32,295 nt of DNA, taken from positions 29,011 through 61,305 of IMG/VR virus record IMGVR_UViG_3300030102_004342, one strand, 5' to 3'. The notes beneath the pieces are model-generated. The model was not told the origin of the DNA, ran no database searches, and saw only the letters and a program-made list of their open reading frames with translations. The position numbers were made by a program, and so were the translations under genes. Below, in pieces: positions 321 to 12,524 of the stretch (positions within the stretch are counted from its first letter, which is position 1; every line of letters starts with the position of its first letter). Origin of the DNA: a virus.

Positions 321-321
321 C

Positions 322-435
322 TTAATCATCTGCTCCTTCAAATATTTTCTTCCAGTGATAGCATTCCCAGCAAGGTCGCTTCCACCACCTGCAGTAAAGA
401 CAACGAGTCTTATCAATCTCATCAAATTGATACAT
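322..435 (-). CDS. 37-residue zinc-ribbon microprotein
   Basis: The ATG at 435 overlaps the stop of the preceding gene as TAATG, so translation is probably coupled. The product begins MYQFDEIDKTRCLYC and carries two knuckles, CLYC (about residues 12-15) and CWEC (about 22-25), separated by a short basic and tryptophan-rich turn. The pattern C-x2-C-x6-C-x2-C fits a compact treble-clef or zinc-ribbon fold binding one zinc ion. A longer reading from 525 in the same frame is possible but would overlap most of the gene before it. The role is unknown; small zinc ribbons in viruses often mediate nucleic-acid or protein contacts. Confidence 0.7.
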   Translation of the reverse strand: MYQFDEIDKTRCLYCRWWKRPCWECYHWKKIFEGADD

Positions 436-665
436 TACGACTCGCCCCCTTCGGAGAAATAGTTTGCAACCCACTCTAAAGTTTTCTGAGCAGATTGCGC
501 CACTACCGGAAGTTTGAAACGCCAAGGCCGTCTGTAAATAGACCTAAACCTTGACTTTGTTGTTTTGACTGCTGTTAGGTAGTCATCTTGTAATCGTGGG
601 TGTCGCTCTACCCACAACAAGACACTTACCATAGCACCCGCAAGACTACGCACTTCATCATTCAT
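435..665 (-). CDS. Small basic hypothetical protein
   Basis: This encodes 76 residues from an ATG at 665 that overlaps the stop of the 658-1404 gene by eight bases; a TTG at 680 is an alternative. GAGG lies a short distance upstream of the ATG. The N-terminal half (NDEVRSLAGAMVSVLLWVERHP) is predicted helical and moderately hydrophobic, the middle is strongly basic (KTTKSRFRSIYRRPWRFK), and the C-terminus is acidic. The basic segment could contact nucleic acid. I recognise no family. Overlaps on both sides place it firmly in the minus-strand operon. Confidence 0.65.
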   Translation of the reverse strand: MNDEVRSLAGAMVSVLLWVERHPRLQDDYLTAVKTTKSRFRSIYRRPWRFKLPVVAQSAQKTLEWVANYFSEGGES

Positions 666-1404
666 ACATAGGCCTCTCAACTGGGGGTGTCATAGGAAGA
701 ATCATAGTTTTGGCAAAGCGGTCTGGGTTAGTGTGCTTCAAGTATTTGTTGCGACCTTTGCACCAATCCTCGGCTGCTTTTATGTTGGGGAAGGTAGTCC
801 AATGCGTTAACTCGTTGGTAGAATACCACCAACCACCTTCTTCTGGCCCTCCATAGTGCTCGTGAACAAAGAACTCGCCAACATAATACATATCTTGCAT
901 TGGTCGATAGTGCTTGGGGTGATGGAAGAAATGATATTGATACTTCATTCTTGCTTCTTCCTCGAGATTGTAGTAATGTCTGCCGTAATCCTTTGAACGG
1001 ACTTCTTCTAATTGTTCCTTGAACTCGTCATGCAATTCATATCTTACATAGTAGTCAGCATATAGAGGTAAGCCCCAGCCTGCTGTGGTTGTAGAGTCAT
1101 AGTCGGGCTTTACCTTGTCATATTTATACCCAAGTTTCTTCCATACCCTCGAGGCTATAAAGTTTTCATACCCAACACCTTCGTAGAAGAACTGATACTG
1201 ATGATAGAGGTCTATATTCCATTTGTAAGGGATAGTGAACCATTCTTTCGCCTGATACCATTTACCCTTAGAGTCGTAGGCACTAAAGCAAAGTTTGCAG
1301 ATATACTTGTCGGGTGGTCTGTGAGTAAAGGTGCGGTTAGCGGCCTTAATCATTTTGCCTCCCTTTTTGACCTCGCCACAACAAAAGCACTTGTTTTCGG
1401 TCAT
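658..1404 (-). CDS. Zinc-knuckle protein with aromatic-rich body
   Basis: The start is set at ATG 1404, which overlaps the stop of the previous gene as ATGA and has GAGGAG upstream; a frame extension to 1500 would read through that gene and is unlikely. The 248-residue product opens with a zinc site: CFCC at about residues 6-9 and CKLC at about 37-40. The rest is unusually rich in Tyr, Trp, His and Phe (for example DLYHQYQFFYEG and HYYNLEEEARMKYQYHFFHH), with a later WTTFPNIKAAEDWCKGR segment resembling small DNA-contacting helices of other viral proteins. I do not recognise a catalytic core. It may be a regulatory or host-interaction protein. Confidence 0.75.
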   Translation of the reverse strand: MTENKCFCCGEVKKGGKMIKAANRTFTHRPPDKYICKLCFSAYDSKGKWYQAKEWFTIPYKWNIDLYHQYQFFYEGVGYENFIASRVWKKLGYKYDKVKPDYDSTTTAGWGLPLYADYYVRYELHDEFKEQLEEVRSKDYGRHYYNLEEEARMKYQYHFFHHPKHYRPMQDMYYVGEFFVHEHYGGPEEGGWWYSTNELTHWTTFPNIKAAEDWCKGRNKYLKHTNPDRFAKTMILPMTPPVERPMYE

Positions 1405-1562
1405 TCTAGCCAACTCCTCATGGATTCCTCTACAACGATTTGAATGTCTCGAGCTAGTCTTACAGATACCTGAAGTCTTACTGCGTCGCATGACTTGCAT
1501 AGTCGGCGCACAACTCCGAATACATCTTTAGAGATAAAGCAATCTTTGCAAGCTTTACGCAT
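1401..1562 (-). CDS. 53-residue zinc-knuckle microprotein
   Basis: The ATG at 1562 directly follows the TAA of the preceding gene (1563-1565), and its own stop overlaps the next start as ATGA. The product begins MRKACKDCFISKDVFG; CKDC (residues 5-8) and CKSC (about 22-25) form a C-x2-C-x13-C-x2-C zinc site, as in many HNH-like or ribbon knuckles (C-x2-C-xxx-F then C-x2-C). The C-terminal half, from about residue 26, is one amphipathic helix (VRLQVSVRLARDIQIVVEE). The overlaps at both ends make this short gene convincing. Its function is unknown; the finger-plus-helix layout suggests nucleic-acid or protein binding. Confidence 0.75.
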   Translation of the reverse strand: MRKACKDCFISKDVFGVVRRLCKSCDAVRLQVSVRLARDIQIVVEESMRSWLE

Positions 1563-1844
1563 TTACTCCGAACCCCCATCTTCTAATCGCGTTGTGAGTG
1601 ATATAACCGTGACTAAGCCTACCTTGTTCATATCTTGGTATGATGTAAGAAAGACATGCGCCCTGCATATTGAACGGTTAAACTTAAATACATTACAACA
1701 AGGATTCTTGCAATACCACCAGCCGGTAGAATCAATCGGTCTCCAGTAAAGATTATTTTCTGGTAGTGGGTGATGCGAGGGCTGGTCACACACAAAACAA
1801 TCTGAAGTACTTAGGCCATCATAGGCAGTGTGTTCTTGACTCAT
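1563..1844 (-). CDS. Zinc-knuckle hypothetical protein
   Basis: This encodes 93 residues from ATG 1844, overlapping the stop of the 1841-2407 gene as ATGA. Cysteines occur as CFVC (about residues 16-19) and as CKNPCC followed by a later C (about 45-61), with HH and H residues between them, consistent with one or two zinc sites. A Trp-Trp-Tyr segment (STGWWYCKN) resembles the GGWWYSTN segment of the 658-1404 protein two genes downstream, so the two may share a small domain. There is no signal peptide or membrane helix. Its function is unknown. Confidence 0.75.
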   Translation of the reverse strand: MSQEHTAYDGLSTSDCFVCDQPSHHPLPENNLYWRPIDSTGWWYCKNPCCNVFKFNRSICRAHVFLTSYQDMNKVGLVTVISLTTRLEDGGSE

Positions 1845-2407
1845 TCTAAATCCTCCAGATACATTTCAAAAAGAGCGTTTTGCACTTTGACTTCGCTAAG
1901 CAACTTTTTGTATATTGCAGCGTGTGCCTTCGCTTGGGCGATAGTTGCCATCTGCACATCGGCTAGGCCATCTGAAGATGTGAACCAATCTACTAAGCTA
2001 GAGTTGATGTTGTATGCTGAATGGAAGGTTCCCATACACCATGCGTCTTGTCCGGCGTGATGCCAGCCCTGTGGGCGCAACTCCGGTTCGGTTGGCTGAC
2101 TGTTATCCCAATAAGCCACACGCTTTTTGACTGTCCAGCCACCCTGCACATACTCCATACCCAAACCTACCTCTACAGCATAGTGGGTGCTATTCTTCTT
2201 CTGTAATATCACCACGCTACTTATTCTTACGCCATCTACCTCGAAGTATTTGACGGTAAGACCGGTAGCACGGCTCGCTTCTTCATCCCGTGTAACCGAG
2301 ACGACATCCTTAAACTCCATGTCTAACATTGTTATACCTTCATATTTTATGAGCCGGTCTTCGGGTTGTCTCGGTAAGTTGTGTTTCGGATTCCCAGCCC
2401 ATGACAA
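1841..2407 (-). CDS. First gene of left minus-strand operon, hypothetical
   Basis: The frame opens at a TTG (2407), 188 residues, 22 nt downstream of a strong TATA box centred near 2428. An internal ATG at 2329 (MLDMEFKDVV) with GAAGG upstream gives a 162-residue alternative that I consider nearly as likely. The centre of the protein looks beta-rich (FEVDGVRISSVVILQKKNSTHYAVEVGLGMEYV in two parts) and is followed by a helical C-terminus containing VDWFTSSDGLADVQMATIAQAK. No known family is recognised. It leads the seven-gene operon and is therefore probably expressed first. Confidence 0.75.
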   Translation of the reverse strand: MSWAGNPKHNLPRQPEDRLIKYEGITMLDMEFKDVVSVTRDEEASRATGLTVKYFEVDGVRISSVVILQKKNSTHYAVEVGLGMEYVQGGWTVKKRVAYWDNSQPTEPELRPQGWHHAGQDAWCMGTFHSAYNINSSLVDWFTSSDGLADVQMATIAQAKAHAAIYKKLLSEVKVQNALFEMYLEDLE

Positions 2408-2423
2408 GACATAATCTTTCTAC

Positions 2424-2432
2424 TATATAAAA
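2424..2432 (-). promoter_or_regulatory. TATA box of left minus-strand operon
   Basis: On the minus strand this reads TTTTATATA, a near-perfect archaeal TATA element, preceded by TTGCGGGTTACGCAC. The same upstream block, with few changes, precedes the TATA box at 3864-3872. Expected transcription start is near 2402-2405, close to the TTG at 2407. Confidence 0.75.
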
Positions 2433-2433
2433 G

Positions 2434-2682
2434 GTGCGTAACCCGCAAGTTGTGACTTCATATTTAACTCGTGACCTTATCATTTTTAGGTGAGGGATAT
2501 GTCTTGTTAGATTTCCTTAATTTTCGTTTGCTTTCTAACTGTTATTTCGTAAGTTTTCTGCAACAATATGAGCTAAAATTATTTTAGGATTTCGGTGCTA
2601 CAAGTCATTTTATGTTTTCGTTCTCCAGCGATAAGCCTACTCCAAGCGTATCGTCACGCACAACTTGTTTTTGATTTTTAAG
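2434..2682. other. Gene-free spacer with inverted repeat
   Basis: I see no credible gene here. It is AT-rich. A perfect 10-bp inverted repeat lies across the left promoter: ACAAGACATA at 2404-2413 and TATGTCTTGT at 2498-2507, with the TATA box between the arms. The remainder holds T-rich tracts (for example TTATTTCGTAAG near 2542) that only loosely resemble the 29-nt elements found further right. Confidence 0.4.
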
Positions 2683-2722
2683 AAAAAAAAGCCCCCCAAG
2701 GTCCCGAAAGACCCTGAGGGGC
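2683..2722 (-). terminator. Intrinsic-type terminator of the 2794-3318 gene
   Basis: Read on the minus strand, a 13-bp stem (GCCCCTCAGGGTC pairing with GACCTTGGGGGGC, two G-T pairs) closes a 6-nt loop and is followed immediately by eight T residues. It lies about 70 bp beyond the stop codon of the minus-strand gene. The form is that of a bacterial factor-independent terminator; the T tract alone would also serve archaeal RNA polymerase. Confidence 0.85.
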
Positions 2723-2793
2723 AGTTATATTCCGCAGAATATATCAGTTCATAAGTGGGGCTCCACGCCCCGAGCCACTTGGACTTGTCTAAC

Positions 2794-3318
2794 TCAGATG
2801 TTTAGACTGTCTTCAAGAAGGTCGGCTTCAGCGAGGGCTTTCAAAGCCGCTTCTCGCTTTGCTGCTGCCTCGGCCTGACGGGCTTCAGCTTCTTCTTTGG
2901 ACATAGCCTTAAGTGTGCCATTGGCAAGTCCCTTAGCACGGGCAATCTGCTTCTGGTATCGACTCTTGAGCTCTATGTTTTTCTTGGCAGTTGGGTCTTT
3001 TACCCAAGCACCAGGCATAGAGAACAAGGTAATTATCGACTCTAGAGTTTTTGCCATTTGCTCCAACTCCGCCACTCGAAGGGTTTGTAGCCCCTCTTTG
3101 CCGTGTGCTAAGGCAGCTTGTTGCTGCCTAAGTTCCTCGTCCATGTTTTTCTTGCAGGCGTCGAGAAAATCACTCGACCTCATTCGCAAAGAACCGACTT
3201 GAGTATCTCTACCGCCCTCGGTCTTCACAAATAAACCTGCAGCCGGCTCGCTTGGAGCCGGACTTTCGTTCGTCTTAGCTGCTTGTTTCTTGTTCTTGCT
3301 ACTTGTTTTTTGTGCCAT
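2794..3318 (-). CDS. Basic, alanine/lysine-rich helical protein (possible third paralogue)
   Basis: The protein has 174 residues from ATG 3318 (a GTG at 3327 is an alternative). The first 35 residues are low-complexity and basic (AQKTSSKNKKQAAKTNESPAPSE), probably disordered. Then comes a short SLRMRSSDFLDA motif, a long helical region and a Lys/Ala/Glu-rich coiled coil at the C-terminus (MSKEEAEARQAEAAAKREAA). The RMR-x2-DF motif and the end region resemble the paralogues at 5599-6015 and 6915-7352, which share RMR-x-RD; I regard this as a likely but distant third member. It is monocistronic, with its own TATA box (3377-3385) and terminator. Function is unknown; nucleic-acid association is possible. 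Confidence 0.8.
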   Translation of the reverse strand: MAQKTSSKNKKQAAKTNESPAPSEPAAGLFVKTEGGRDTQVGSLRMRSSDFLDACKKNMDEELRQQQAALAHGKEGLQTLRVAELEQMAKTLESIITLFSMPGAWVKDPTAKKNIELKSRYQKQIARAKGLANGTLKAMSKEEAEARQAEAAAKREAALKALAEADLLEDSLNI

Positions 3319-3376
3319 AAGTTGCACGCTCCTACCCCCGCTTCGTTCTGGGGCAGTCTGACTTAGACGGTTCGAC

Positions 3377-3385
3377 TATATAAAA
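3377..3385 (-). promoter_or_regulatory. TATA box of the 2794-3318 gene
   Basis: The minus strand reads TTTTATATAGT, identical over 11 bases to the box of the left operon, with CGCGTTGCG upstream. Expected start of transcription is near 3354, leaving a leader of about 35 nt that contains GGGGGTAGGAG before the start codon. Confidence 0.75.
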
Positions 3386-3443
3386 GTATCGCAACGCGAC
3401 TCTTAGCTTATTAAAACAAGTCAACTTGCGCTGGGTCTACTTG

Positions 3444-3472
3444 ACTGTGCGATTTTGCTCAAGCTTTTTTCG
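3444..3472 (+). repeat. 29-nt element, copy 1
   Basis: It begins ACTGTGCGATT, followed by 10 variable bases and TTTTTTCG. The flanking TTGACT (3441) and AGTCAA (3475) form an inverted repeat around it. It is one of six same-orientation copies between 3444 and 6367. Confidence 0.8.
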
Positions 3473-3489
3473 TAAGTCAACTTGGCGGG

Positions 3490-3503
3490 GCGGCTCGAGC
3501 CGC
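3490..3503. repeat. Perfect 14-bp palindrome
   Basis: GCGGCTCGAGCCGC is self-complementary over all 14 bases and lies between copies 1 and 2 of the 29-nt element, in the spacer between the divergent promoters at 3377 and 3611. It could be an operator or a cruciform or hairpin element. Confidence 0.7.
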
Positions 3504-3512
3504 TGGATACTT

Positions 3513-3541
3513 ACTGCACGATTCCGCATGACATTTTTTCG
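3513..3541 (+). repeat. 29-nt element, copy 2
   Basis: It begins ACTGCACGATT, followed by 10 variable bases and TTTTTTCG. CTTAC and GTAAG at its edges (3510-3514 and 3541-3545) are inverted repeats. It lies about 70 bp upstream of the TATA box at 3611. Confidence 0.85.
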
Positions 3542-3610
3542 TAAGGGCTCAGCACCCCCTGCTGTGTGTGTATATCTTAGAAATACAACACAAGAACCGA
3601 AAAGCAACCC

Positions 3611-3619
3611 TATTATATA
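3611..3619 (+). promoter_or_regulatory. TATA box of the 3643-3801 gene
   Basis: The sequence AGCAACCCTATTATATA ends in a TATA box centred about 27 bp before the ATG at 3643, indicating a leaderless transcript. The methyltransferase promoter at 4594 has AGCGACCCTATTATATA, one base different. Confidence 0.8.
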
Positions 3620-3642
3620 CCAAAACCGTCTACCTTAAAGTG

Positions 3643-3801
3643 ATGGTAATAGAAGATGATATACGATGTAGCATGTGCAATAAGGTAATATGTCATAGCC
3701 TAAGCGAAGGTTATGACTATTGGATATATGAAACCGACGAGGGATGGTTAGTTTTTTGTTGGGATTGTGAAACCAAGTACAACCGCAACATCAAGACATG
3801 A
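3643..3801 (+). CDS. 52-residue zinc-knuckle microprotein
   Basis: The start at ATG 3643 is chosen because it lies exactly at the expected transcription start; an in-frame extension to 3568 would begin upstream of the promoter. The protein MVIEDDIRCSMCNKVICHS has CSMC (residues 9-12), C17, H18 and CWDC (about 40-43), with an aromatic acidic segment (YDYWIYETDEGWLVF) between, matching a zinc-ribbon in which two CxxC knuckles bracket a beta hairpin. It is followed by an A-rich stretch and then by a separately promoted set of three more cysteine-rich genes. Its function is unknown. Confidence 0.75.
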   Translation: MVIEDDIRCSMCNKVICHSLSEGYDYWIYETDEGWLVFCWDCETKYNRNIKT

Positions 3802-3840
3802 AATAAAAAAAAGAAAAAAATAAAAATAAGGTAAAAAAAT
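3799..3840. other. A-rich tract after the 3643-3801 gene
   Basis: About 40 bases are almost pure adenine with scattered G and T on the plus strand. It separates the leaderless gene from the next promoter. It may act as a promoter-upstream flexible or bent tract; in the minus direction it would be a T-rich termination tract, but no minus-strand gene ends here. Confidence 0.4.
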
Positions 3841-3863
3841 AGGTAAGTTGCGGGTAACGAACA

Positions 3864-3872
3864 TTATATATA
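3864..3872 (+). promoter_or_regulatory. TATA box of the 3894-4392 operon
   Basis: TTATATATA is centred 26 bp before the ATG at 3894 and is preceded by TTGCGGGTAACGAAC. This upstream block is nearly the same as that of the left operon promoter (2424), suggesting shared regulation. Confidence 0.8.
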
Positions 3873-3893
3873 CCGGAAACGGCTAAGATTACC

Positions 3894-4064
3894 ATGACGA
3901 AAAATCATGATGATGCTGGAAAAAAGTCTCGTGTGGTCACACGCAAGATAGAATTTGAATGTGGGTGTGTAGTGCTTGTTCGCAATCCTACAACTCTATT
4001 TATCGGAACAAATTGTAGCGACACTCGAAAGACTTGTGTTGCTCGTAGGACTAGGTTGGTGTGA
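3894..4064 (+). CDS. 56-residue cysteine-rich microprotein
   Basis: The ATG at 3894 coincides with the expected transcription start, so the mRNA is probably leaderless. The protein is basic: MTKNHDDAGKKSRVVTRK followed by IEFECGCVVLVR and two later cysteines (TNCSDTRKTCVARR). The four cysteines (CGC, then C and C) could bind one metal ion. The FECGC segment resembles the FDCGC segment of the next gene product, so these may be a diverged tandem duplication. The stop lies two bases before the next ATG. Its function is unknown. Confidence 0.7.
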   Translation: MTKNHDDAGKKSRVVTRKIEFECGCVVLVRNPTTLFIGTNCSDTRKTCVARRTRLV

Positions 4065-4066
4065 AT

Positions 4067-4261
4067 ATGACTGGCAAAGACCCAACCGGTAATGACCACA
4101 ATTGCACCTTGGCTTTTGATTGTGGCTGTGAAATACACATACGAACCGTATCTATAAACGGCTCACCCAAACAAAGAATGCTTACAAAAAGACGAGTGCC
4201 TTGCAACCGATGCTGCCTTAGTGGCCTAAACATAACTGGTGATAGAACAACCTACTGGTGA
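4067..4261 (+). CDS. 64-residue cysteine-rich microprotein
   Basis: The ATG at 4067 follows the previous stop by two bases; a GTG at 4061 overlaps that stop and is an alternative. The product contains FDCGCEIHIR and VPCNRCCLSG, giving a likely CxC...CxxCC metal site. Its first half parallels the preceding protein (FECGC-V-x-V-R versus FDCGC-x-I-x-I-R). The C-terminus is polar. Both belong to a three-gene leaderless operon. Its function is unknown. Confidence 0.7.
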   Translation: MTGKDPTGNDHNCTLAFDCGCEIHIRTVSINGSPKQRMLTKRRVPCNRCCLSGLNITGDRTTYW

Positions 4262-4266
4262 ATAAA

Positions 4267-4392
4267 ATGAATGCTGAACTTAAATGGATTGAACATGTCT
4301 TAGACCCAAACTATTGTTGCTGGTATTGCTTCATATTGTATAACTTCGGTGGCACAACAATAGAAGATGCTATGAAAAAGGTACTCGAATAG
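4267..4392 (+). CDS. 41-residue microprotein with CCWYC cluster
   Basis: The ATG at 4267 starts five bases after the preceding stop. The product MNAELKWIEHVLDPNYCC continues WYCFILYNFGGTTIEDAMKKVLE. It has three clustered cysteines (CC-x2-C, residues 17-21), an N-terminal helix and a C-terminal amphipathic helix. With only three cysteines and a nearby histidine (H10), metal binding is possible but unproven. It is the last gene of the small operon; the next 29-nt element begins 100 bp downstream. Confidence 0.6.
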   Translation: MNAELKWIEHVLDPNYCCWYCFILYNFGGTTIEDAMKKVLE

Positions 4393-4495
4393 TTTGACTT
4401 ACCATATCCCCCCTCCGACCTGGGCATGTCCTTAAACTGCCCACCTTTTGCGTAACAAGGCGTATGCTTTGTTTCAACTTGTCAGTCATTAGATT

Positions 4496-4524
4496 ACTGC
4501 ACGATTCCTCGAATAGTTTTTTCG
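4496..4524 (+). repeat. 29-nt element, copy 3
   Basis: It begins ACTGCACGATT, with 10 variable bases and TTTTTTCG. The internal CTCGAA and terminal TTCGAG can form a hairpin closing on the T tract. It lies about 70 bp upstream of the methyltransferase TATA box. Confidence 0.85.
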
Positions 4525-4593
4525 AGAACCCTTGCCAGGCACGGCTCAACTCGCCCTACTTAAAAAATCACCTATTCTTGCACATAGCGACCC

Positions 4594-4602
4594 TATTATA
4601 TA
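4594..4602 (+). promoter_or_regulatory. TATA box of the methyltransferase gene
   Basis: TATTATATA is preceded by AGCGACCC, nearly identical to the 3611 promoter. Expected transcription start is near 4626, leaving a leader of about 22 nt that contains a strong ribosome site (GGGGGTGAT) before ATG 4648, so unlike its neighbours this gene is not leaderless. Confidence 0.8.
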
Positions 4603-4647
4603 GTTAGTAGGTATAGGTTAGATTAACCCGAATGGGGGTGATTTGTT

Positions 4648-5358
4648 ATGAAAGAAGTTGAAACATTATCGGAAATACCATATAGTGTATTCCAAGTTAA
4701 AAGAAATAAACACAATAGGCGAACAAATACCAAGGGGAAACACACACAATTAGAATGTGGCAACTTCCCCTTGAATGTGGTTAATCACATCGGCCAATTA
4801 TATCTAAAGGATTGTCGCCAAGTTGTTGACCCGTTTAGTGGGTGGGGTGAACGCCATGCCGGACTTGCTAAGTTAGGCATTCCCTATTGTGGGTTTGACA
4901 TATCTAGAGTTGCTAATGAATACGCAAGGAAAGAATTAGGGGTATTCAATCACTATGGCGATTCAAGGAAAGTATTTGTGCCAAGACACGACGGGCTAAT
5001 CACATGCCCACCGTATTACAATGTGGAAAAATATGACGACCCAAAGGGATTAGATAAGTTAGATTCGTGGGAATCATTCCTATTGGATTATGAATACATA
5101 TTAAGGCGTTTCGCACTAAAGGCCGAACAAGGAGCCGTATATTGTATCATTACGGGAAATTGGCGTAGCAAGGGGAAATACTATGAATTGACCTACAATA
5201 CGGAAAAGATTATGGAGAAGTTAGGCTTTGTAAAGCACGACATGGTTATACTATCAAGGAAAGGGCATTTCAATCCATGTATTCAATTGCCACAATGTAA
5301 AAAGTTCAAAAGAAGTGTAAAGGTGCATGAAACATTAAATGTATGGATTAAGTCATAA
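4648..5358 (+). CDS. Orphan DNA methyltransferase (amino-methyltransferase type)
   Basis: The 236-residue protein has a class I S-adenosylmethionine fold: motif I DPFSGWG (residues 61-67) for cofactor binding, an acidic FDIS after strand 2 (83-86), and the catalytic TCPPY (119-123), the (D/N/S/T)-PP-(Y/F/W) type motif of enzymes that methylate exocyclic amines of adenine or cytosine. The order motif I then motif IV is kept, and no long target-recognition domain is present, so it is shorter than most type II enzymes. There is no neighbouring restriction nuclease. The likely role is protection of the viral genome from host restriction, or a regulatory mark. It has its own promoter with a 29-nt element upstream and a GGGGGTGAT ribosome site. 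Confidence 0.88.
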   Translation: MKEVETLSEIPYSVFQVKRNKHNRRTNTKGKHTQLECGNFPLNVVNHIGQLYLKDCRQVVDPFSGWGERHAGLAKLGIPYCGFDISRVANEYARKELGVFNHYGDSRKVFVPRHDGLITCPPYYNVEKYDDPKGLDKLDSWESFLLDYEYILRRFALKAEQGAVYCIITGNWRSKGKYYELTYNTEKIMEKLGFVKHDMVILSRKGHFNPCIQLPQCKKFKRSVKVHETLNVWIKS

Positions 5359-5439
5359 TTAAAAAAAAGTAGGATTTTTCTGAAGCGGGTAGTGGAAGGT
5401 AAGTCTTTTTTTTGTAAGTTGTAAAGTCCAGTACAACTT

Positions 5440-5468
5440 ACTGCACGATTTTGCGTAGCATTTTTTCG
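5440..5468 (+). repeat. 29-nt element, copy 4
   Basis: It begins ACTGCACGATT, with 10 variable bases and TTTTTTCG. It lies 80 bp after the methyltransferase stop. A weak TATA-like sequence follows near 5504, but I see no plus-strand gene behind it. Confidence 0.85.
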
Positions 5469-5521
5469 AAGCAAGGTGGTGGTGAGACCACAACTCGTCA
5501 TGTGTATAATGTATTTAAAAA

Positions 5522-5575
5522 AACAAAGCGGGGGGGCGTGCCTATTATTCACCTCCTTGTGGCACGCTACCCCCC
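5522..5575 (-). terminator. Structured RNA and terminator behind the 5599-6015 gene
   Basis: On the minus strand, six G (5575-5570), a UAG bulge and CGUGCC (5566-5561) wait for GGCACG (5542-5537) and C6 across an 18-nt loop that contains AAGGAGGTGA, a perfect ribosome-site-like sequence. The stem is followed by GCTTTGTTTTTTT, so it probably terminates transcription of the minus-strand gene. A structural homologue with compensating stem changes lies at 6829-6877. Confidence 0.8.
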
Positions 5576-5598
5576 TATTTGTTCTAATCATGACCTAA

Positions 5599-6015
5599 TC
5601 ACAACTTTGCTTTGGCCGCCGCCGCCGCCGCTTTCAATGCGGCGATTTGTGCATCCAATTCATCGTCAATGGCTTTGGTTTTGTCGGCTTTTGTCATGTG
5701 GATAGTTTGTAGTTTAGCGATTAGTGCTTTAGTGTCGGCAATCGGTTTCAAATTGAAAGCGTTGCGTTCTAGTTTGTAGGTTGTCATAGTTTGTTCCCAT
5801 AGTGCGATGTTAGCGTTTAGGCATGTGATGATTTTAGTAGTTACAACCTTTGCGGGTGTAATGTCGCCGTCGGTATATGAATTGATAGTTTCACCATCAA
5901 TCGAATTGTTGAAATCACGGATTCGCATCCTAATATTTTGTATTGTTGATTTTTTTCCCATATTATCATCACCCCCTACGCATTGGCCTATGTATAGCAC
6001 GGTTTCGCCGACCAT
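5599..6015 (-). CDS. RMR-RD helical protein, paralogue A
   Basis: I place the start at ATG 6015 (138 residues) because a TATA box centred near 6041 lies 26 bp upstream and because the N-terminus (MVGETVLYIGQCVGGDD) then aligns with that of the 6915-7352 protein; a GTG at 6063 in the same frame lies upstream of the box. The protein shares with its paralogue VGG, IRMR-x-RD, a central helical part and a C-terminus of the type I-x-D-x3-L-AKL followed by a coiled coil. The end is a run of alanine and lysine. An internal ATG at 5961 has GGGGGTGAT upstream and could give a shorter form. The function is unknown. Confidence 0.82.
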   Translation of the reverse strand: MVGETVLYIGQCVGGDDNMGKKSTIQNIRMRIRDFNNSIDGETINSYTDGDITPAKVVTTKIITCLNANIALWEQTMTTYKLERNAFNLKPIADTKALIAKLQTIHMTKADKTKAIDDELDAQIAALKAAAAAAKAKL

Positions 6016-6035
6016 GAGACAACCTACCCTTTCAG

Positions 6036-6044
6036 ATATATAAA
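6036..6044 (-). promoter_or_regulatory. TATA box of paralogue A
   Basis: The minus strand reads TATTTATATATC, centred 26 bp before ATG 6015, implying a leaderless mRNA. A second TATA-like run (6105-6114) lies further upstream. Confidence 0.7.
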
Positions 6045-6104
6045 TACCATAGATTTGACTCACTTAGTCCACGAGATGCAAGCTAAACACAACGAAGGCC
6101 AGAC

Positions 6105-6216
6105 TATATATATAGGGTGGTTTCGGCGAACGAGGCCAGGGTATATATACTAGAAGGTTTCGCATTGCACAAGCGGAACCTTTATATACCCCCTAGCGGC
6201 GGGTCTTTTTTTCGCC
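6105..6216. promoter_or_regulatory. Tandem TATA modules and large imperfect palindrome
   Basis: Two modules of a TATATATA run followed 8-10 bp later by GGTTTCG occur at about 6105 and 6142. The second is part of a large inverted repeat: GGTATATA (6140-6147) and AGGTTTCGC (6155-6163) pair with GCGGAACCT (6173-6181) and TATATACC (6183-6190) around a 9-nt loop. A T tract (6205-6211) follows. This could be a bidirectional promoter, an operator or the gene for a short structured RNA. I see no protein-coding gene in 6064-6420; the rest of that gap holds two copies of the 29-nt element. Confidence 0.55.
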
Positions 6217-6275
6217 CCCCCTTAAGGGATATAACCCAACCCACCCACAGTTAAGAAGTATCTGGGCAAATCCTC

Positions 6276-6304
6276 ACTGCAAGATTTCCAGCAAGTATTT
6301 TTCG
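6276..6304 (+). repeat. 29-nt element, copy 5
   Basis: It begins ACTGCAAGATT, with the same overall length, ending ATTTTTCG. It is the most diverged copy, 34 bp before copy 6. Confidence 0.7.
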
Positions 6305-6338
6305 ATACGGGATGAATTACAAGCAACTCGTCGGGAAT

Positions 6339-6367
6339 ACTGTACGATTTTTTTAGTTATTTTTTCG
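6339..6367 (+). repeat. 29-nt element, copy 6
   Basis: It begins ACTGTACGATT, with 10 variable bases and TTTTTTCG. TAGCGACCC follows at about 6379, the same block that precedes the methyltransferase TATA box, and AT-rich TATA-like sequence at 6403-6419, but no plus-strand gene is seen. Confidence 0.8.
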
Positions 6368-6420
6368 AGGGGTATGTATAGCGACCCGCCTGGCGCACAT
6401 AGTATAATATATAATAATAA

Positions 6421-6440
6421 AGAAAAGGGGGCGAACCCCC
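6421..6440 (-). terminator. Hairpin terminator of the paralogue B operon
   Basis: On the minus strand GGGGG-TTCG-CCCCC is a perfect stem with a stable UUCG tetraloop followed by TTTTCTTTATT. It lies 20 bp after the stop of the 38-residue gene and would end the operon that starts at 7352. Confidence 0.8.
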
Positions 6441-6445
6441 TAATC

Positions 6446-6477
6446 CCTATTATGATAGGTTCAACCGATAGGTTGAA
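6446..6477 (-). other. Two adjacent perfect tetraloop hairpins at a gene end
   Basis: CCTAT-TATG-ATAGG (6446-6459) and TTCAACC-GATA-GGTTGAA (6460-6477) are perfect stems in direct succession, immediately upstream (minus strand) of the terminator hairpin. The larger stem contains the stop codon and last codons of the 6461-6577 gene, so folding could affect translation end or message stability. Confidence 0.65.
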
Positions 6478-6577
6478 TATCACCACAAATAATGCAAACC
6501 CACGCCAAAACGCCTTTGTCTAAATCCAAACCTAAACAATAATCACAATCGCATTTTAATGTAATAGTGATATTCAT
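6461..6577 (-). CDS. 38-residue zinc-ribbon microprotein
   Basis: The ATG at 6577 abuts the TAA of the preceding gene with no gap. The product MNITITLKCDCDYCLGLD ends WVCIICGDIQPIG. Cysteines CDCDYC (residues 9-14) and CIIC (about 29-32) form a minimal zinc ribbon whose second knuckle, CIICG, is typical. The stop codon sits inside a perfect hairpin. It is the last gene of the operon 7352 to 6461. Its function is unknown. Confidence 0.7.
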   Translation of the reverse strand: MNITITLKCDCDYCLGLDLDKGVLAWVCIICGDIQPIG

Positions 6578-6769
6578 TTATTCATCACCCGGCAAATCAT
6601 GCGTTCTAATGTTCATCCATGATAACCCATGTAGTAGGGTGTAGGCAATCATTTGACTATGTTGGATTCCTAATAGGGAAATCATAACATAATCATTCAT
6701 CACGACACGATTTTTATTAATCGCATTATGGTATAACACTATTCTATTGTATGGGATTTTGGTTTCCAT
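6578..6769 (-). CDS. Small hypothetical protein
   Basis: This encodes 63 residues from ATG 6769, which has GGGG at a suitable distance; an ATG at 6790 in the same frame lies inside a perfect inverted repeat (GCCCG and CGGGC at 6783-6797) and lacks a ribosome site. The protein METKIPYNRIVLYHNAINK is followed by a moderately hydrophobic segment (YVMISLLGIQHSQMIAYTLLHGL) that is too polar for a confident membrane helix. It lies downstream of the structured RNA at 6829-6877, which may control it. Its function is unknown. Confidence 0.6.
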   Translation of the reverse strand: METKIPYNRIVLYHNAINKNRVVMNDYVMISLLGIQHSQMIAYTLLHGLSWMNIRTHDLPGDE

Positions 6770-6828
6770 ATTGCCCCGAATCGCCCGCATGACGGGCGTT
6801 AGTCGTTAGGCATTTGACCAAAATGGTC

Positions 6829-6877
6829 GGGGGGGCGGTGATTTAGATAATCACCCCCTTTATCACCGCTACCCCCC
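6829..6877 (-). promoter_or_regulatory. Structured RNA between paralogue B and the next gene
   Basis: On the minus strand G6, a UAG bulge and CGGTGAT (6868-6862) pair with ATCACCG (6842-6836) and C6 across a 19-nt loop containing AAGGGGGTGATTAT. The layout, bulge, 5' flank (GAAC-RAAT) and loop motif match the element at 5530-5575, while the inner stem differs in a pairing-preserving way. There is no T tract; a second small hairpin (GACCA-AAA-TGGTC, 6817-6829) follows, so read-through into the gene at 6769 is likely. Confidence 0.75.
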
Positions 6878-6914
6878 TAAATTCGTTCATAGGCTTTATC
6901 GCAATTACTAGGCA

Positions 6915-7352
6915 TCACTTTTTAGAAATGATAGCGTTGTTGGCGTCAATTTGTTGTTGTAGTAGTTCCATTTGCTTTAGTAGGTCGTCGTTGGCCATTT
7001 TAGCCTTTTGTTGTGGTGTAATGTGTAATTCCTTTAGTTTGGCTAGCATAGCATCGCAATCATGGATAGGTGCTAGGTTGACTTTGTTTTTTGGTTGTTT
7101 GTAGATTTTCATAGCCCCCATGTAAAATGCTTTAGCGGTTTCTAGTAGTTTGATATAGTGCTTTGTCATTTCCTTTGAATGTGGCGTGTTAACCGTGTGC
7201 TTTTTGTGGTTCGGTTCTAGATACGATTCTTTAGTCATGTTCATGATGTCACGAAATCGCATACGAATAACATTATCAAAAGTAGTTGAAATTTTTTCAC
7301 CCCCTACAACGGATGGCATTTCTAAAACCGTGTTGTCGATAGGTTTCACCAT
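6915..7352 (-). CDS. RMR-RD helical protein, paralogue B
   Basis: This protein has 145 residues from ATG 7352, with a TATA box centred 25 bp upstream, so probably leaderless. It is clearly related to the 5599-6015 product: MVKPIDNTVLEMPSVVGGE aligns with its N-terminus, VIRMRFRDI with IRMRIRDF, and NLAPIHDCDAMLAKLKELHI with NLKPIADTKALIAKLQTIHM. The last 30 residues form a Gln/Leu coiled coil (LLKQMELLQQQI), suggesting oligomers. The same type of structured RNA follows each gene, so gene and RNA were duplicated together. The molecular role is unknown; a nucleic-acid-binding or regulatory function is only inferred from the basic, helical character. Confidence 0.82.
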   Translation of the reverse strand: MVKPIDNTVLEMPSVVGGEKISTTFDNVIRMRFRDIMNMTKESYLEPNHKKHTVNTPHSKEMTKHYIKLLETAKAFYMGAMKIYKQPKNKVNLAPIHDCDAMLAKLKELHITPQQKAKMANDDLLKQMELLQQQIDANNAIISKK

Positions 7353-7373
7353 GTATCGTGATTCATGTTCTAG

Positions 7374-7380
7374 TTATAAA
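7374..7380 (-). promoter_or_regulatory. TATA box of paralogue B
   Basis: The minus strand reads CCCTTTATAAC, centred about 25 bp before ATG 7352, consistent with a leaderless start. Confidence 0.65.
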
Positions 7381-7418
7381 GGGCTAGGTTGATGCACGGT
7401 AGATGCACCATAGGGTAG

Positions 7419-7460
7419 CATATATATAGTATAACTAAACGCGTGCCAAAAACCGGCACG
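7419..7460 (+). promoter_or_regulatory. TATA-like run and CGTGCC hairpin
   Basis: TATATATAG (7421-7429) is followed by a perfect hairpin, CGTGCC (7442-7447) and GGCACG (7455-7460) with a 7-nt loop. The stem bases equal the inner stem at 5537-5566. No gene starts within reach, so this may be an operator or a short RNA. An imperfect direct repeat (GATGCAC, 7391 and 7402) lies just upstream. Confidence 0.45.
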
Positions 7461-7522
7461 GCCTACAAGTTGGCATCGCCCACCACTCCTCGAAATTTTT
7501 CTGAAAATTTTAGTAAATGGTC

Positions 7523-7531
7523 TTTATAAAA
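7523..7531 (+). promoter_or_regulatory. TATA box of the 7579-7749 gene
   Basis: TTTATAAAA lies about 52 bp before ATG 7579, giving an expected leader of roughly 25 nt. It is the only strong TATA element near this gene. Confidence 0.55.
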
Positions 7532-7578
7532 AGCATTTTTACCTCTTTTCTAAATAACTACACTATCTATGGTTAATC

Positions 7579-7749
7579 ATGCTCCAATGCTCGGTATGTG
7601 GTTACAAGGGGGAAAGATGGGGTGTTCACAATGCATTGTTCGAGTTAGAAACATTAGCCCTATACTACGAGTTTCAATGCCCCGAATGTGATTCATTAGA
7701 TATAGAAATACTAATTTCCAAAAATGATGAACCTTCCGCTCCCCGATGA
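7579..7749 (+). CDS. 56-residue zinc-ribbon microprotein overlapping terL end
   Basis: The product MLQCSVCGYKGERWGVHNA has CSVCG (residues 4-8) and CPECDS (about 34-39) with an aromatic helix between, a standard zinc ribbon. The last 39 bases run antisense over the 3' end of the convergent terminase gene. No good ribosome site is visible at 7579, so start assignment rests on the position just before the first knuckle. An overlapping frame from ATG 7569 lacks the knuckles and is less convincing. Its function is unknown. Confidence 0.65.
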   Translation: MLQCSVCGYKGERWGVHNALFELETLALYYEFQCPECDSLDIEILISKNDEPSAPR

Positions 7750-9186
7750 CTTTGAGTTACCCCATGATGTGCTATTGGCGGTTTGTGTAGCCATTGGTAG
7801 AGCATTGGAATCCGCATGAGTCATTTGGTCTATGGCATGTGCAAAGGCCATGACTGTATCGTTATGTTTACCCACATCAATTATATTACCGGCTTTCCAT
7901 ACATGGGTGTCTAGTTCATCTAATAGTATATTTACCATGCGTCGGGTTTCATCGTTACCATAAGGGAATATTACTTTCTTTTGTTCAAACCACACACGCA
8001 GTCTATTCATCAAAGCCTGTTTCAAAGCACGATTAGATACTTTGCTTTGGCGGTAGTCTACCGTTATTCCCTTTTGAACCAATAATGACTCATACAATCT
8101 TTGAAATCCTACATCTTCCGCAGATATGGGTGCATTAAAAGTTTTAGACCATTGGCCTAGCATATCGGCTTGTTTATCGGGCGCAAAGTCATTCCTACGC
8201 CACATATTAACAAAGTGAACAAAGCCTTCGTTGTCTTGTCTAAGGACAATCATAACCGAGTAGTCTTTTCCTAAACCTTGTGACGGGTCAAAGCCTATCA
8301 TGTATTTACCCGGTGTTTTACTATCCCACTCGATGACGGCGTTTGTGTTCATGTTTGCACGAGTATGTTCACGCTTGAATGCTTGCGCTTCATCATCCAC
8401 CACTTTACACAAATATTCTTGCGTAAATGCTAATTCACCTATCGCTTGCTTTTGTTCTAACAAAAATGCTATCGGTCTTTGTTCTTCCCATAAAGCAATA
8501 GGGTCTATCGACGGGTCGGCTTTATGTTCATCCCAATTAGGGATTGCCGATGTTGTAGTTGTTTTCCACACATCATTTGATAACATTTCCGTATGATATA
8601 GGTCTGTCATAGCCATAGGTGTTCCAACAACGAATATTGATGTTCCTGGCGAAAGCATAGGTGTTATTTTCTTTCTAAACCAATGTTGTAGGTTAGTAGG
8701 GGATTGTTCGCCCACATCATCTAATACATCGTCAAACACAATACGGGCTGGGTGTTCACCACGAATAGCAGCACCTACACCGGTTGCACGAATCCATGAG
8801 CCGTTAGTAAAGTGTATAGAGTGTTTTGTTCCTCGCTTTGGGTCTATTAGATTCCTAAGTTGGGGATGCCTACGCATATCCTCCCTAATTTCTTCTAACC
8901 TACGCATAGCAAGGTCTTTGCTTGCACTAAACAACCAAGTAGTAAATGGTTTGTCACGCCATCTTTCAAATAGACAAGACCACAATACCGCTACCCTTAG
9001 TGTTGTGGATTTAGAGTGGTCACGAGGTGCTATGATACATACACGGTGAACATTTGCGTCACCACGATTAAAATATAGGTTCATCCATTCTTCGATATGG
9101 TCTCCCCACGAATAACCCAACCATTGATAAAAATACTTTGGGTCTTTGGCACTACGCTTTAGGGATAATGCTTGTGTTACACTCAT
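7711..9186 (-). CDS. terL: Terminase large subunit
   Basis: This 491-residue motor and nuclease packages DNA into the procapsid. The ATPase part has a Walker A variant PRDHSKST (residues 54-61), Walker B IVFDD (149-153) and the coupling motif VVGTP (186-190). The RNase H-like nuclease part has FDPSQGLGKDYS (D300 and D308) and a late acidic residue in KHNDTVMAFAHA near 458, supplying the metal-binding triad. The start overlaps the preceding zinc-protein stop as ATGA. The gene is last in a three-gene minus-strand operon with a phosphoesterase. Both domains look intact and the length is typical. Confidence 0.96.
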   Translation of the reverse strand: MSVTQALSLKRSAKDPKYFYQWLGYSWGDHIEEWMNLYFNRGDANVHRVCIIAPRDHSKSTTLRVAVLWSCLFERWRDKPFTTWLFSASKDLAMRRLEEIREDMRRHPQLRNLIDPKRGTKHSIHFTNGSWIRATGVGAAIRGEHPARIVFDDVLDDVGEQSPTNLQHWFRKKITPMLSPGTSIFVVGTPMAMTDLYHTEMLSNDVWKTTTTSAIPNWDEHKADPSIDPIALWEEQRPIAFLLEQKQAIGELAFTQEYLCKVVDDEAQAFKREHTRANMNTNAVIEWDSKTPGKYMIGFDPSQGLGKDYSVMIVLRQDNEGFVHFVNMWRRNDFAPDKQADMLGQWSKTFNAPISAEDVGFQRLYESLLVQKGITVDYRQSKVSNRALKQALMNRLRVWFEQKKVIFPYGNDETRRMVNILLDELDTHVWKAGNIIDVGKHNDTVMAFAHAIDQMTHADSNALPMATQTANSTSWGNSKSSGSGRFIIFGN

Positions 9187-9350
9187 CTTTCATCACCATA
9201 CCTAATAACTCGCATCGTTCCACAATACATCATACGCTTTTCTTTTTTGCACCATTTTTTACAAGATGTGTAGCGACAATACTTTTCATAACCGCATTCA
9301 TTACATTTACGGTGTTTATAATATAACACCCCTCCGCCCCTTCTACTCAT
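9183..9350 (-). CDS. 55-residue zinc protein between phosphoesterase and terminase
   Basis: The ATG at 9350 overlaps the end of the phosphoesterase gene by eight bases and the stop overlaps the terminase start as ATGA, so all three are probably translated together. The product begins MSRRGGGVLYYKHRKCNEC and contains C16, C19, C25, C30, C34 and C43 among many lysines, giving one or two metal sites in a very basic protein (CNECGYEKYC, then SCKKWC). A role as a packaging co-factor or DNA-contacting partner of the terminase is an inference from position only. Confidence 0.8.
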   Translation of the reverse strand: MSRRGGGVLYYKHRKCNECGYEKYCRYTSCKKWCKKEKRMMYCGTMRVIRYGDER

Positions 9351-10779
9351 GCTTTCTCACCGGACTAAATAAACTTCCTATCAAGCCTAATTCCTTATCT
9401 ATAATATGAGCCGCTAAACCAGCCTTTGCCGTTGTATATCCAGCTCGGTAATGGTATCTATCGTGGCCTGCTAATGAAGGTAATTGTATGACTAATCCAC
9501 CATCTAATTCGTGTAATACTTGGTGGTGCAAATGTCCTGTAAACCATATATGGGATTCCGTTTGACCCCACAATTCTCTTTTTTCTTTAGACATTAGCGT
9601 TGGTAGTTTTGACTTCTTTATGTTATCACCATGATTAAATCCTAATAGTGTATTACCATAGGTAGTATAATGTCTAACTTGCGGGTTTAGATTCACGCTA
9701 ACATCATCAACCCCTTCGTATGCGGCTGATAAATATAACATCAAAGCCAATGTGCTATGTCTATCATGATTACCAGCCATAAACACAACCTCTATGGGTG
9801 CTACCTGTCGTAGAAGGTCTATGTGTTCTCGTGCTAGTTGACAGCCACTAATTAATATTTCAGCCGGTGAACCACACATATCTTGTTGTGTGCCACGAGT
9901 TGTTTGCCCTAAATCGTTATCTACATGAAACCAATCACTACCAGATGCTAAAATTATTTTGTCTGGCTTTGCAGGTAGCCATGATATTATTTCTTGTGTT
10001 CTATCCATTAGTCTGCTTCGTGCTTCCTCAAAGTTATATGATTCACCTACCTCATCAACCCAACCATATTTACCCCAATGAAAGTCTGTTGGAGACATTA
10101 CTACCGCAAAGGGGGATTTAGATTCCGGTATTCGTAGTTTGGGGACACTTTTAGGGGCTTTTGTTAGCCCATTTAGCATTCCTTTATATGTATCTTCAAA
10201 GTGAAACCACTTTTCAGCCGCTTCTTGTATGTCTTTCCACTTTTTCTTTTCATACTTTTTGTGTATCTCCCTACGATTTCTAAGAACAAGGTCTTCAACA
10301 AGTTCATCATTGTCGGTTTCCATTACCTCTTCGTCGGTATATGGTAACATATCGTGAGTCCAACCATGTTTTCTTCGGTATTCATCAAACCAAAGACGGG
10401 GAAAGTTAAACTCGCGTGCAATTTGGTTTAGTGTTGCGCCTTTGCTTGTCATATTAGAGTATGATGATTTCATGGCTCGGTGCATATCACCGGATATTAC
10501 TATGTTTTCACCCGCACACTTTATGAAAGTAATGTATGTATCGGTTTCTTTGTTGTAGTGGTATGGTGCTTTATCGTATTCTATTGGGCTAGATTCGGTT
10601 TGTATAGCCCCATCCACATATCTTAGATAGTTGTAAATCATTTTTTCCCACCCTTTATGTGAACGATAGGGATAATTACGATTCAAATCTGCCGCTAATT
10701 TAGTTTTCATACCCCTAACATTAATCGGGTAGTCGCTAATCATGCCTTCTATCTTTTCAAAGTCGTCGTGTCTTTCCAT
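9343..10779 (-). CDS. Metallophosphoesterase with N-terminal DNA-binding-like region
   Basis: I use ATG 10779 (478 residues), 28 bp after a TATA box, over a GTG at 10800. The C-terminal half is a calcineurin-like two-metal phosphoesterase: D-x-H in PTDFHWG (about D232, H234), SGSDW (D282), GNHD (336-339), NHGD (H383) and GHLHH (415-419). Substrates in this family range from nucleic acids to nucleotides and phosphoproteins; no choice is possible here. The N-terminal half has a probable helix-turn-helix (about residues 112-140, with ATLNQIAREFNFPRLWF) and a long charged helix. It leads the packaging operon, so a DNA-processing or small-terminase-like role is an attractive inference. Confidence 0.9.
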   Translation of the reverse strand: MERHDDFEKIEGMISDYPINVRGMKTKLAADLNRNYPYRSHKGWEKMIYNYLRYVDGAIQTESSPIEYDKAPYHYNKETDTYITFIKCAGENIVISGDMHRAMKSSYSNMTSKGATLNQIAREFNFPRLWFDEYRRKHGWTHDMLPYTDEEVMETDNDELVEDLVLRNRREIHKKYEKKKWKDIQEAAEKWFHFEDTYKGMLNGLTKAPKSVPKLRIPESKSPFAVVMSPTDFHWGKYGWVDEVGESYNFEEARSRLMDRTQEIISWLPAKPDKIILASGSDWFHVDNDLGQTTRGTQQDMCGSPAEILISGCQLAREHIDLLRQVAPIEVVFMAGNHDRHSTLALMLYLSAAYEGVDDVSVNLNPQVRHYTTYGNTLLGFNHGDNIKKSKLPTLMSKEKRELWGQTESHIWFTGHLHHQVLHELDGGLVIQLPSLAGHDRYHYRAGYTTAKAGLAAHIIDKELGLIGSLFSPVRKHE

Positions 10780-11049
10780 TGATACGCTGTTAGCACACAC
10801 CCACTATAAACATATCCTGAATTATTTTTATTGTTTTGTTAGCCCAACAAAAAAATAAATATCTTTCAGTAGCCCTTTTTTGTAAATTCTTTATTAATGC
10901 TTATAATATGTAAAAACTATTATTACAGTAAGTAATATTACCTACCCCTATAAGAAGAAAAAATAAAAAATTACACATACCTTCGCAGCATAGCGTTTTA
11001 TTTATTTGTATATAAACAAAAGAATTAATCCAATTCATTCAAATAGACG
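10780..11049. promoter_or_regulatory. Divergent promoter region between packaging and late operons
   Basis: About 270 bp of AT-rich DNA without a gene. The minus-strand TATA box is TTTATA (10805-10810) and the plus-strand box is TATATAAA (11009-11016). The middle holds T and A tracts but no repeat that I can define. This is the switch point between leftward packaging and rightward morphogenesis transcription. Confidence 0.75.
11009..11016 (+). promoter_or_regulatory. TATA box of the late operon
   Basis: TATATAAA is centred 37 bp before the portal ATG, predicting a leader of about 10 nt. It is the main candidate promoter for the long plus-strand block to the window end. Confidence 0.7.
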
Positions 11050-12480
11050 ATGGCTTATTTGAACATCATGGCAAAGGAGTCCAGGCTACGCAGGTTGTTT
11101 AGGAGAAAGCCGGTGGTGGCTACGGAAGTGCCTACCGGAATTAGCGGTAGAAAGGCAGCACCAACCGAATTATTTGCCGGTTTGTCCGATGTATTGAAAC
11201 AAACCGATGATTTGGGGCGTTCATCCCGTTCTCGTTCACAATACGATAATTATGACCAAACATTTGATTTGTTTGATAGTATGGTTAGATTAGACCCCGA
11301 ATTGAACGGTGCTGTGCGTTCTGTTTCGCTAACGGCTAATAACTATCACATAGACTACAAAGTTGCTAAGAATGCCCGTATTCGCAACGCTATCAAAAAA
11401 CTAATTCACGATTTAGACTTTGACGACATTCTAATATCGGCTTTACGAAACCTAATGGTATATGGTAACGACATAAACAAATTAGTAGGTAAAGCAGGCG
11501 TAGGTATCACCGGCATACAATCCCTACCGGCTAAACAAATAACAATAATGGACAGACGGGTAGATATTAGAGAATTATCATCATCGGGCTATACCGGACA
11601 TATTACCGAAGATAATCCGGTTATGAGTGCCGAATACTATTTGTTTCGTGAAAACAAAGTAGATACACAGGTCTTTTCAAAAGATGAAATACTACACATA
11701 AAGATTGACTACCGTTCTAATTGGTTTAGGGATAGATTAGGCCGTTACACATACGGTATATGGGGTGCATCACGATTTACCGCACTAAAACAACCTATCC
11801 GTGCAAAGTATAATAGTATCAACAATAGGGTAGCATTAGAGGATAGTCTAACAAAGCAATTCATTAGTATTGATATGAAAGCGGTTGAACATATACAAGA
11901 CCCCGCCGAACAAAAGGAAAGACTAAAGACCATAATGAATGATGTCGCCAAACTATTAGAAACACTAGAAGGTGACCAAATACCAATCTTACCCGACTAC
12001 ATTAGAATAAACCATGTAGATTTACAAAATGCAATCCCTGACTCGTCATCATTTTTAGACTCGGTAAATGCGGATATTGCGGCAGTTCTAAATGTGCCTC
12101 GTGTAGCCGCCGGACAAGAAAAGGGCTCAACCTTTGCGGCAACATACAATGCTAACATTTGGGCGGTATCGGCAATAACAAGACTACAAGGTATATTAGA
12201 AGAATCAATACACAAACTATTTGGCAAGCATTTAGAATTATTAGGAATCCCATACAAGCATGATGACCTACCAGTTCTAAAATTTAAACCAATAGATGAG
12301 GAAACACCACTAAATAGAATGCGTAGAGCACAAATAGGATATGATAGTGGTATGCTATCAATAGACCAAGCACTACACATTGTTGGATTATTAGATGATA
12401 AAAAGCCCAAAAAGCAAGGCAAAGCAAACACGGGGCGACTACCACGAGAAAACGAAGTAGAGAACAATTCTAAACCCTAA
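11050..12480 (+). CDS. Portal protein
   Basis: This 476-residue protein forms the ring at the capsid vertex through which DNA is packaged. Family signs are the N-terminal basic leader (RLRRLFRRKPV), the conserved YDQTFDLFDSMVRLDPELNGAVRSV helix pair (in two parts, about residues 75-100), and the stem and crown region with DSVNADIAAVLNVPRVAAG (about 335-355), which is characteristic of portals, followed by the helix AISRLQ-type segment and SIHKLFG. An alternative start at the second ATG (MAKESRL) is possible. It opens the late operon directly after the TATA box. Length is typical. Confidence 0.92.
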   Translation: MAYLNIMAKESRLRRLFRRKPVVATEVPTGISGRKAAPTELFAGLSDVLKQTDDLGRSSRSRSQYDNYDQTFDLFDSMVRLDPELNGAVRSVSLTANNYHIDYKVAKNARIRNAIKKLIHDLDFDDILISALRNLMVYGNDINKLVGKAGVGITGIQSLPAKQITIMDRRVDIRELSSSGYTGHITEDNPVMSAEYYLFRENKVDTQVFSKDEILHIKIDYRSNWFRDRLGRYTYGIWGASRFTALKQPIRAKYNSINNRVALEDSLTKQFISIDMKAVEHIQDPAEQKERLKTIMNDVAKLLETLEGDQIPILPDYIRINHVDLQNAIPDSSSFLDSVNADIAAVLNVPRVAAGQEKGSTFAATYNANIWAVSAITRLQGILEESIHKLFGKHLELLGIPYKHDDLPVLKFKPIDEETPLNRMRRAQIGYDSGMLSIDQALHIVGLLDDKKPKKQGKANTGRLPRENEVENNSKP

Positions 12481-12524
12481 GTTAAAACAAGCCATTAGAC
12501 ACAGACGACATCGGAGACGGCATT

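Follow-up and report, generated by a model that had tools for sequence, protein, structure and literature searches.

Strong stem-loops behind two RMR-RD genes of a probably archaeal tailed virus: candidate 3'-untranslated elements with ribosome-site-like loops

The window, i.e., the whole stretch of 32,295 nucleotides analyzed here, corresponds to bases 29011-61305 of a 61,305-base IMG/VR virus record (IMGVR_UViG_3300030102_004342). Tailed-virus genes encoding the large terminase (7711-9186, minus strand), the portal (11050-12480, plus strand), and a tail tape-measure-like protein (26128-29787) were identified in it, and the other half of the record codes for a family-B DNA polymerase, an ERCC4/HHH nuclease, and an AAA clamp-loader-like protein. 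Since the best listed of the named matches of the polymerase are haloarchaeal tailed viruses (22-23% identity), and since TATA-like boxes can be read upstream of genes, the sequence makes an archaeal host likely. The source is probably a marine, tailed, archaeal virus, and our guess as to the host is a marine archaeon of the Poseidoniales; a TerL search of genome contigs yielded no relative. With the terminase as the query, 80 related IMG/VR loci were obtained, among which L002-L007 show 91-96% identity, and the region syntenic to the one described below is reached by L003, L006, and L007.

Two paralogous RMR-RD genes, P1 and P2, lie on the minus strand, and each is followed by a hairpin. In the order in which the minus strand is read, the features are as follows:

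6915-7322, minus strand: P2, RMR-RD paralogue; start codon uncertain, no ATG where the conserved start of the relatives lies
6829-6877, minus strand: element 2 (copy 2), hairpin behind P2; G6, UA bulge, 8-bp inner stem, 19-nt loop, C6; no T tract
6851-6858, minus strand: Shine-Dalgarno-like motif GGGGGTGA in loop 2; predicted unpaired 0.3-1.0
6782-6798, minus strand: second hairpin, CGCCCGTCATGCGGGCG, 12 nt ahead of the P3 start; counterparts in L003 and L006
6578-6769, minus strand: P3, small conserved gene after element 2
6461-6577, minus strand: Cys-rich ORF of 38 aa immediately following the stop codon of P3; L003 and L007 have it as well
6426-6441, minus strand: plain GGGGG-UUCG-type hairpin with a T-rich tail, at the end of the P2-P3-Cys ORF group
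5599-5961, minus strand: P1, RMR-RD paralogue, 120 aa; all-helical model, no family
5530-5575, minus strand: element 1 (copy 1), hairpin behind P1; G6, UA bulge, 7-bp inner stem, 18-nt loop, C6
5549-5556, minus strand: Shine-Dalgarno-like motif GGAGGTGA in loop 1; predicted unpaired 0.87-1.0
5517-5527, minus strand: terminator-like T tract TTTGTTTTTTT after element 1

The RMR-RD profile, run over 21 full records of relatives, was found in a narrow clade only. The single-protein search of IMG/VR with P2 confirmed no relative, and the searches with the RMR-RD family and P3 alignments yielded no contigs beyond those already found. Neither P1 nor P2 matched any known RNA-binding family, and the predicted RMR-RD fold, an all-helical bundle, gave no significant match in the PDB. 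At 7290-7310 (minus strand), P2 has a perfect Shine-Dalgarno-like GTAGGGGGTGA and no ATG at the place where the L003, L006, and L007 genes start; it would need AUU or another start codon, or the gene is altered. The hairpin ahead of P3 occurs at a similar place but with a different sequence in several relatives (about 6828-6848 in L003 and 12431-12450 in L006). The ORF at 5283-5591, which runs through element 1, was rejected as a mechanical frame: its end lies antisense to the methylase gene, and reading the L003 and L007 sequences at the homologous place showed no equivalent frame.

A preliminary description of this DNA had reported a pair of minus-strand elements, one behind each RMR-RD paralogue, and both were found in these positions, 23 nt after the stop codon of P1 and 37 nt after that of P2. 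Copy 1 (5575-5530) reads GGGGGG-UA-GCGUGCC-[18 nt ACAAGGAGGUGAAUAAUA]-GGCACGC-CCCCCC, and copy 2 (6877-6829) reads GGGGGG-UA-GCGGUGAU-[19 nt AAAGGGGGUGAUUAUCUAA]-AUCACCGC-CCCCCC. The overall form proposed (G6, bulge, inner stem, loop of 18-19 nt, C6) is therefore correct, but the bulge is UA and not UAG, since the G pairs with a seventh C. As had also been described, the inner stems differ between the copies and both remain fully paired, according to the sequence and to RNA folding. The predicted folding energies are -26.3 kcal/mol for copy 1 and -27.4 kcal/mol for copy 2 (z -3.5 and -3.9 versus dinucleotide shuffles), which makes these elements the second and third most stable 50-nt windows on either strand of the whole 61,305-base record. 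Stems of 13 and 14 bp place both copies above the GC-rich stem of at least 7-8 bp expected of intrinsic terminators, whereas the T tract directly after the stem is present, as previously noticed, in copy 1 only (TTTGTTTTTTT at 5527-5517). No same-strand gene lies close downstream of copy 1. The two copies are alike over about 32 nt alone (75% identity), plus a short GAAC-RAAT flank. The window gave zero matches above the gathering score in Rfam (4227 families), and the matches obtained at relaxed thresholds were weak, sub-threshold, and not credible.

A covariance model built from copy 2 alone and searched over 883 kb recovered copy 1 (E 3e-5 over 883 kb). Its best match outside the window was a hairpin at 12354-12397 of L006, with an E value of 0.83 over all 883 kb and of 4e-4 within its own 425 bases. 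This hairpin is syntenic to copy 2, lying behind the L006 RMR-RD gene and ahead of the L006 P3 gene with an equal stop-to-stem gap of 37 nt; its loop also contains GGGGGUGAU, and its UA is paired, not bulged (GGGGUAGGGUGC / GCACCCUAUCCC). In the structure-fitted alignment, five base pairs are changed on both sides and 96% of the cells pair, while shifting the 3' arm by 1-3 columns reduces pairing to 51-67%; one of the four rows represents copy 2 read on the opposite strand and carries no evidence of its own, and the five doubly changed pairs stand without that row. The compensating stem changes first noticed between the two copies thus support a structured RNA, and the covariance search in related contigs, which had been proposed as a check, returned a homologue with kept pairing in L006. 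The first IMG/VR pattern scan (GGGGGGTAGCG...AAGGRGGTGA) gave no match, and a looser one combining the 5' arm and the loop motif gave seven, among which only the L006 contig folds into this hairpin.

Hairpins at the corresponding gene ends of the other relatives were then compared with these three. Both RMR-RD genes are retained in L003 and L007, as is P3, and a GGGGGG(G)/CCCCCC(C)-type stem is present 54-57 nt past the stop codon of each RMR-RD gene; of these four stems, three have a UUCG loop and one has UUAG; the hairpin of the second gene is followed by a T8-type tail, CCCTTTTTTTT. Other strong stems occur at the corresponding gene ends of L008, L010, and L012. The hairpins of L003, L007, and L012 are unrelated in sequence, most of them with UUCG loops and often with U tracts. 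The 110 nt after the stop codon fold at -26 to -44 kcal/mol (z -1.3 to -4.2) at all 14 of the RMR-RD-like or neighboring gene ends considered, which came from the window, L003, L006, L007, L008, L010, and L012; at 39 other gene ends of the record, used as a control, z was above -1.5 in 36 cases and below it in three. Since the relatives keep the position but carry plain, unrelated hairpins, what is conserved is the presence of a strong stem-loop behind the gene, the stem and loop sequences of which turn over. A distinct class of ribosome-binding RNA is not supported, as L003, L007, and L012 carry plain strong hairpins at the same places instead of the element with the Shine-Dalgarno loop.

Of sites combining a hairpin and a T tract, 24 were counted in window positions 1-16000 (13.3 expected by shuffling), 22 in L007 (9.9 expected), and 15 in part of L013 (9.6 expected), overlapping variants of one site being counted separately in each case. 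Long examples with 14-17 bp are found at 2691-2722 of the window, at 11663 of L007, and at 14196, 13269, and 19281 of L013.

The position of the elements, their stability, their compensating changes, and the recurrence of strong hairpins behind homologous genes are direct observations, and it seems fairly probable to us that each element forms a stem-loop in the 3'-untranslated part of its RMR-RD gene, copy 1 at the end of a message and copy 2 between cistrons. From these observations we infer that the hairpins are transcribed, that they act in the formation or the stability of RNA 3' ends, and that each copy has its own role. Copy 1 and the hairpin at 6426-6441 are both located at the ends of same-strand gene groups and resemble 3' ends consisting of a hairpin plus a U tract: in copy 1, the strong stem and the U3-G-U7 tract would end the P1 message. 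Copy 2, being inside a gene group and devoid of a U tract, is read as an intercistronic barrier, and would probably block exonucleases or mark a processing point between P2 and P3, in which case the P2 and P3 messages would be expected to differ in level. Selection would maintain a strong GC stem at the gene end while the letters of the stem and loop drift, and the ribosome-site loop would be a lineage-specific feature of the source virus and L006.

The arms of these hairpins are perfectly matched, and the compensation apparent in two copies and one relative could come from template-switch mutation matching the arms of an inverted repeat, since quasi-palindrome switching produces this pattern in one step. 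The elements might accordingly be inverted repeats acting in the DNA, as a protein site or a feature of replication or packaging, with no role in RNA, and other repeated DNA motifs exist in the same region. However, the hairpins always occur behind the same genes and in the same orientation, several have U tracts on the sense strand, and the stop-to-stem gap is equal in copy 2 and L006, all of which makes a purely DNA-level role unlikely.

What the 3'-end interpretation leaves unexplained is the loop motif, as copy 1, copy 2, and L006 all show UAG, then 10 nt, then GGRGGTGA. The exact matches to AGGGGGGTAGCG in the window are the two loops only. GGRGGTGA itself occurs at seven sites of the record, both strands included: before the methylase gene, P1, and P2, in the two loops, and at two places elsewhere. 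With only seven occurrences, about 6e-4 would be expected by chance per 18-nt loop (arithmetic from the record count). As had been stated, the motif is not followed by a start codon, here meaning one that opens a reading frame, in either copy. The predicted duplex energies with a generic anti-Shine-Dalgarno sequence (GGAUCACCUCCU), which may not be that of the host, range from -15.7 to -17.7 kcal/mol, and this pairing is as strong as that of the Shine-Dalgarno sequences of P1, P2, and the methylase gene. The complementarity to the 16S rRNA 3' end claimed for the loops is consistent with these energies. The predicted accessibility is uneven across the three hairpins, being high in copy 1 and intermediate in copy 2, while the last four motif bases are largely closed in the L006 loop (0.01-0.04).

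The Shine-Dalgarno loop is, as far as the contigs can be read, a rare embellishment present in three hairpins of two viruses only, and belongs to one sub-lineage or module comprising the source virus and L006. The P3 protein of L006 is closer to that of the window than the L003 protein (76 versus 58% identity) although the terminases of both relatives are at 91% identity to that of the window, which suggests that this hairpin and P3 may have travelled together. A scan of related contigs for further GGRGGTG sites within hairpins returned mostly noise. The heavy turnover around GGRGGTGA leans slightly toward selection rather than shared ancestry, in a sample of three homologous copies.

One alternative is that the loops serve as ribosome-binding decoys, or as STAB-SD-like sites at which a non-initiating 30S subunit protects the message or titrates ribosomes. 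None of the three loops has lost GGRGGUGA although the adjacent letters change, its predicted pairing equals that of the local initiation sites, and a non-initiating Shine-Dalgarno sequence has a precedent in the STAB-SD, the 5' stabilizer of the Bacillus thuringiensis cry3A message (PMC4113751). Like the STAB-SD, the loops carry a Shine-Dalgarno-like sequence with no start codon after it; they differ in being 3' of genes, in the loop of a hairpin, and in a virus that probably belongs to another domain, whereas the STAB-SD works at the 5' end and not behind a last gene. Since, in addition, the closest other relatives lack the motif, which is predicted to be half paired in L006 and partly paired in copy 2, and only three homologous copies are known, this explanation is improbable, and so, in our estimation, is ribosome binding by the loops as such. 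The translational switch or ribosome binding envisaged in the preliminary description is a minor, unsupported possibility. A 3'-untranslated hairpin class of tailed archaeal viruses, in which the loop would capture the 30S subunit and thereby protect the message or couple termination to translation, appears to us decidedly doubtful.

The RMR-RD proteins might also regulate themselves by binding the ribosome sites of their own genes (AGGGGGUGA, ahead of P1 and P2) together with the 3' hairpin loops, and strong Shine-Dalgarno sequences are indeed rare in the record, clustering at the two loops and ahead of P1, P2, and the methylase gene; but the all-helical bundle has no significant structural match and belongs to no known RNA-binding family, and the relatives with UUCG hairpins retain the protein, so that autoregulation is very unlikely. 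Chance stem-loops without function are scarcely credible, for although G/C runs form stable stems by themselves, the elements rank second and third for stability in the record, pairing is conserved in the L006 homologue, and strong hairpins stand behind all the family members.

Returning to the 3'-end interpretation, the elements resemble intrinsic terminators in having a strong GC stem soon after the stop codon and, in copy 1 and several relatives, a U tract after it; they differ from them in that copy 2 has no U tract and that the loops of 18-19 nt carry a ribosome-site motif instead of being tetraloops. In enterobacteria, REP-type stem-loops stabilize messages between cotranscribed genes, and copy 2, which lacks a U tract and has a gene of the same strand on either side, can be likened to them by position. 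The archaeal 3' ends mapped so far have U tracts and do not require a hairpin (PMC8716108), and given the probable archaeal host, a bacterial-type terminator cannot be taken for granted here. If the 3'-end interpretation is correct, tailed viruses of probably archaeal hosts would use bacterial-looking ends made of a hairpin plus a U tract, despite the hairpin-free termination of archaea; their recurrence in a virus group would be of some interest by itself if the host is archaeal. Should the loop bind ribosomes as well, it would represent a novel type of 3' control element, for which a single RNA would suffice in vitro.

Other features of the same region were recorded. A motif of about 30 bp, [TA]CGAAAAAA-N8/9-AAATCGTGCAGTA, starts at 6368, 5469, 4525, and 3542 on the minus strand of the window and is present six times each in L003 and L007 and three times in L010 and L013; every copy has the orientation of the terminase strand and lies between gene groups, and many copies form pairs with a spacing of about 67-70 bp. 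The motif is a candidate operator, unusual promoter, or iteron. The non-coding segment at 4386-4647 shows 88-89% identity to L003 and L007, which is above that of the terminase region (about 84%), and the plus-strand gene behind it differs, being a DNA methylase in the window and other genes in L003 and L007; it may be a control region that is conserved while its cargo is exchanged, or else a minus-strand non-coding RNA. A G7/C-rich foldable segment (6186-6235, minus strand), which abuts TATA-like boxes upstream of P1, also occurs in L003 and L007. Lastly, a very stable fold (z -5.2 to -6.1) is predicted at 17010-17120 on the plus strand, just past the gene end at 17009 and overlapping the next frame.
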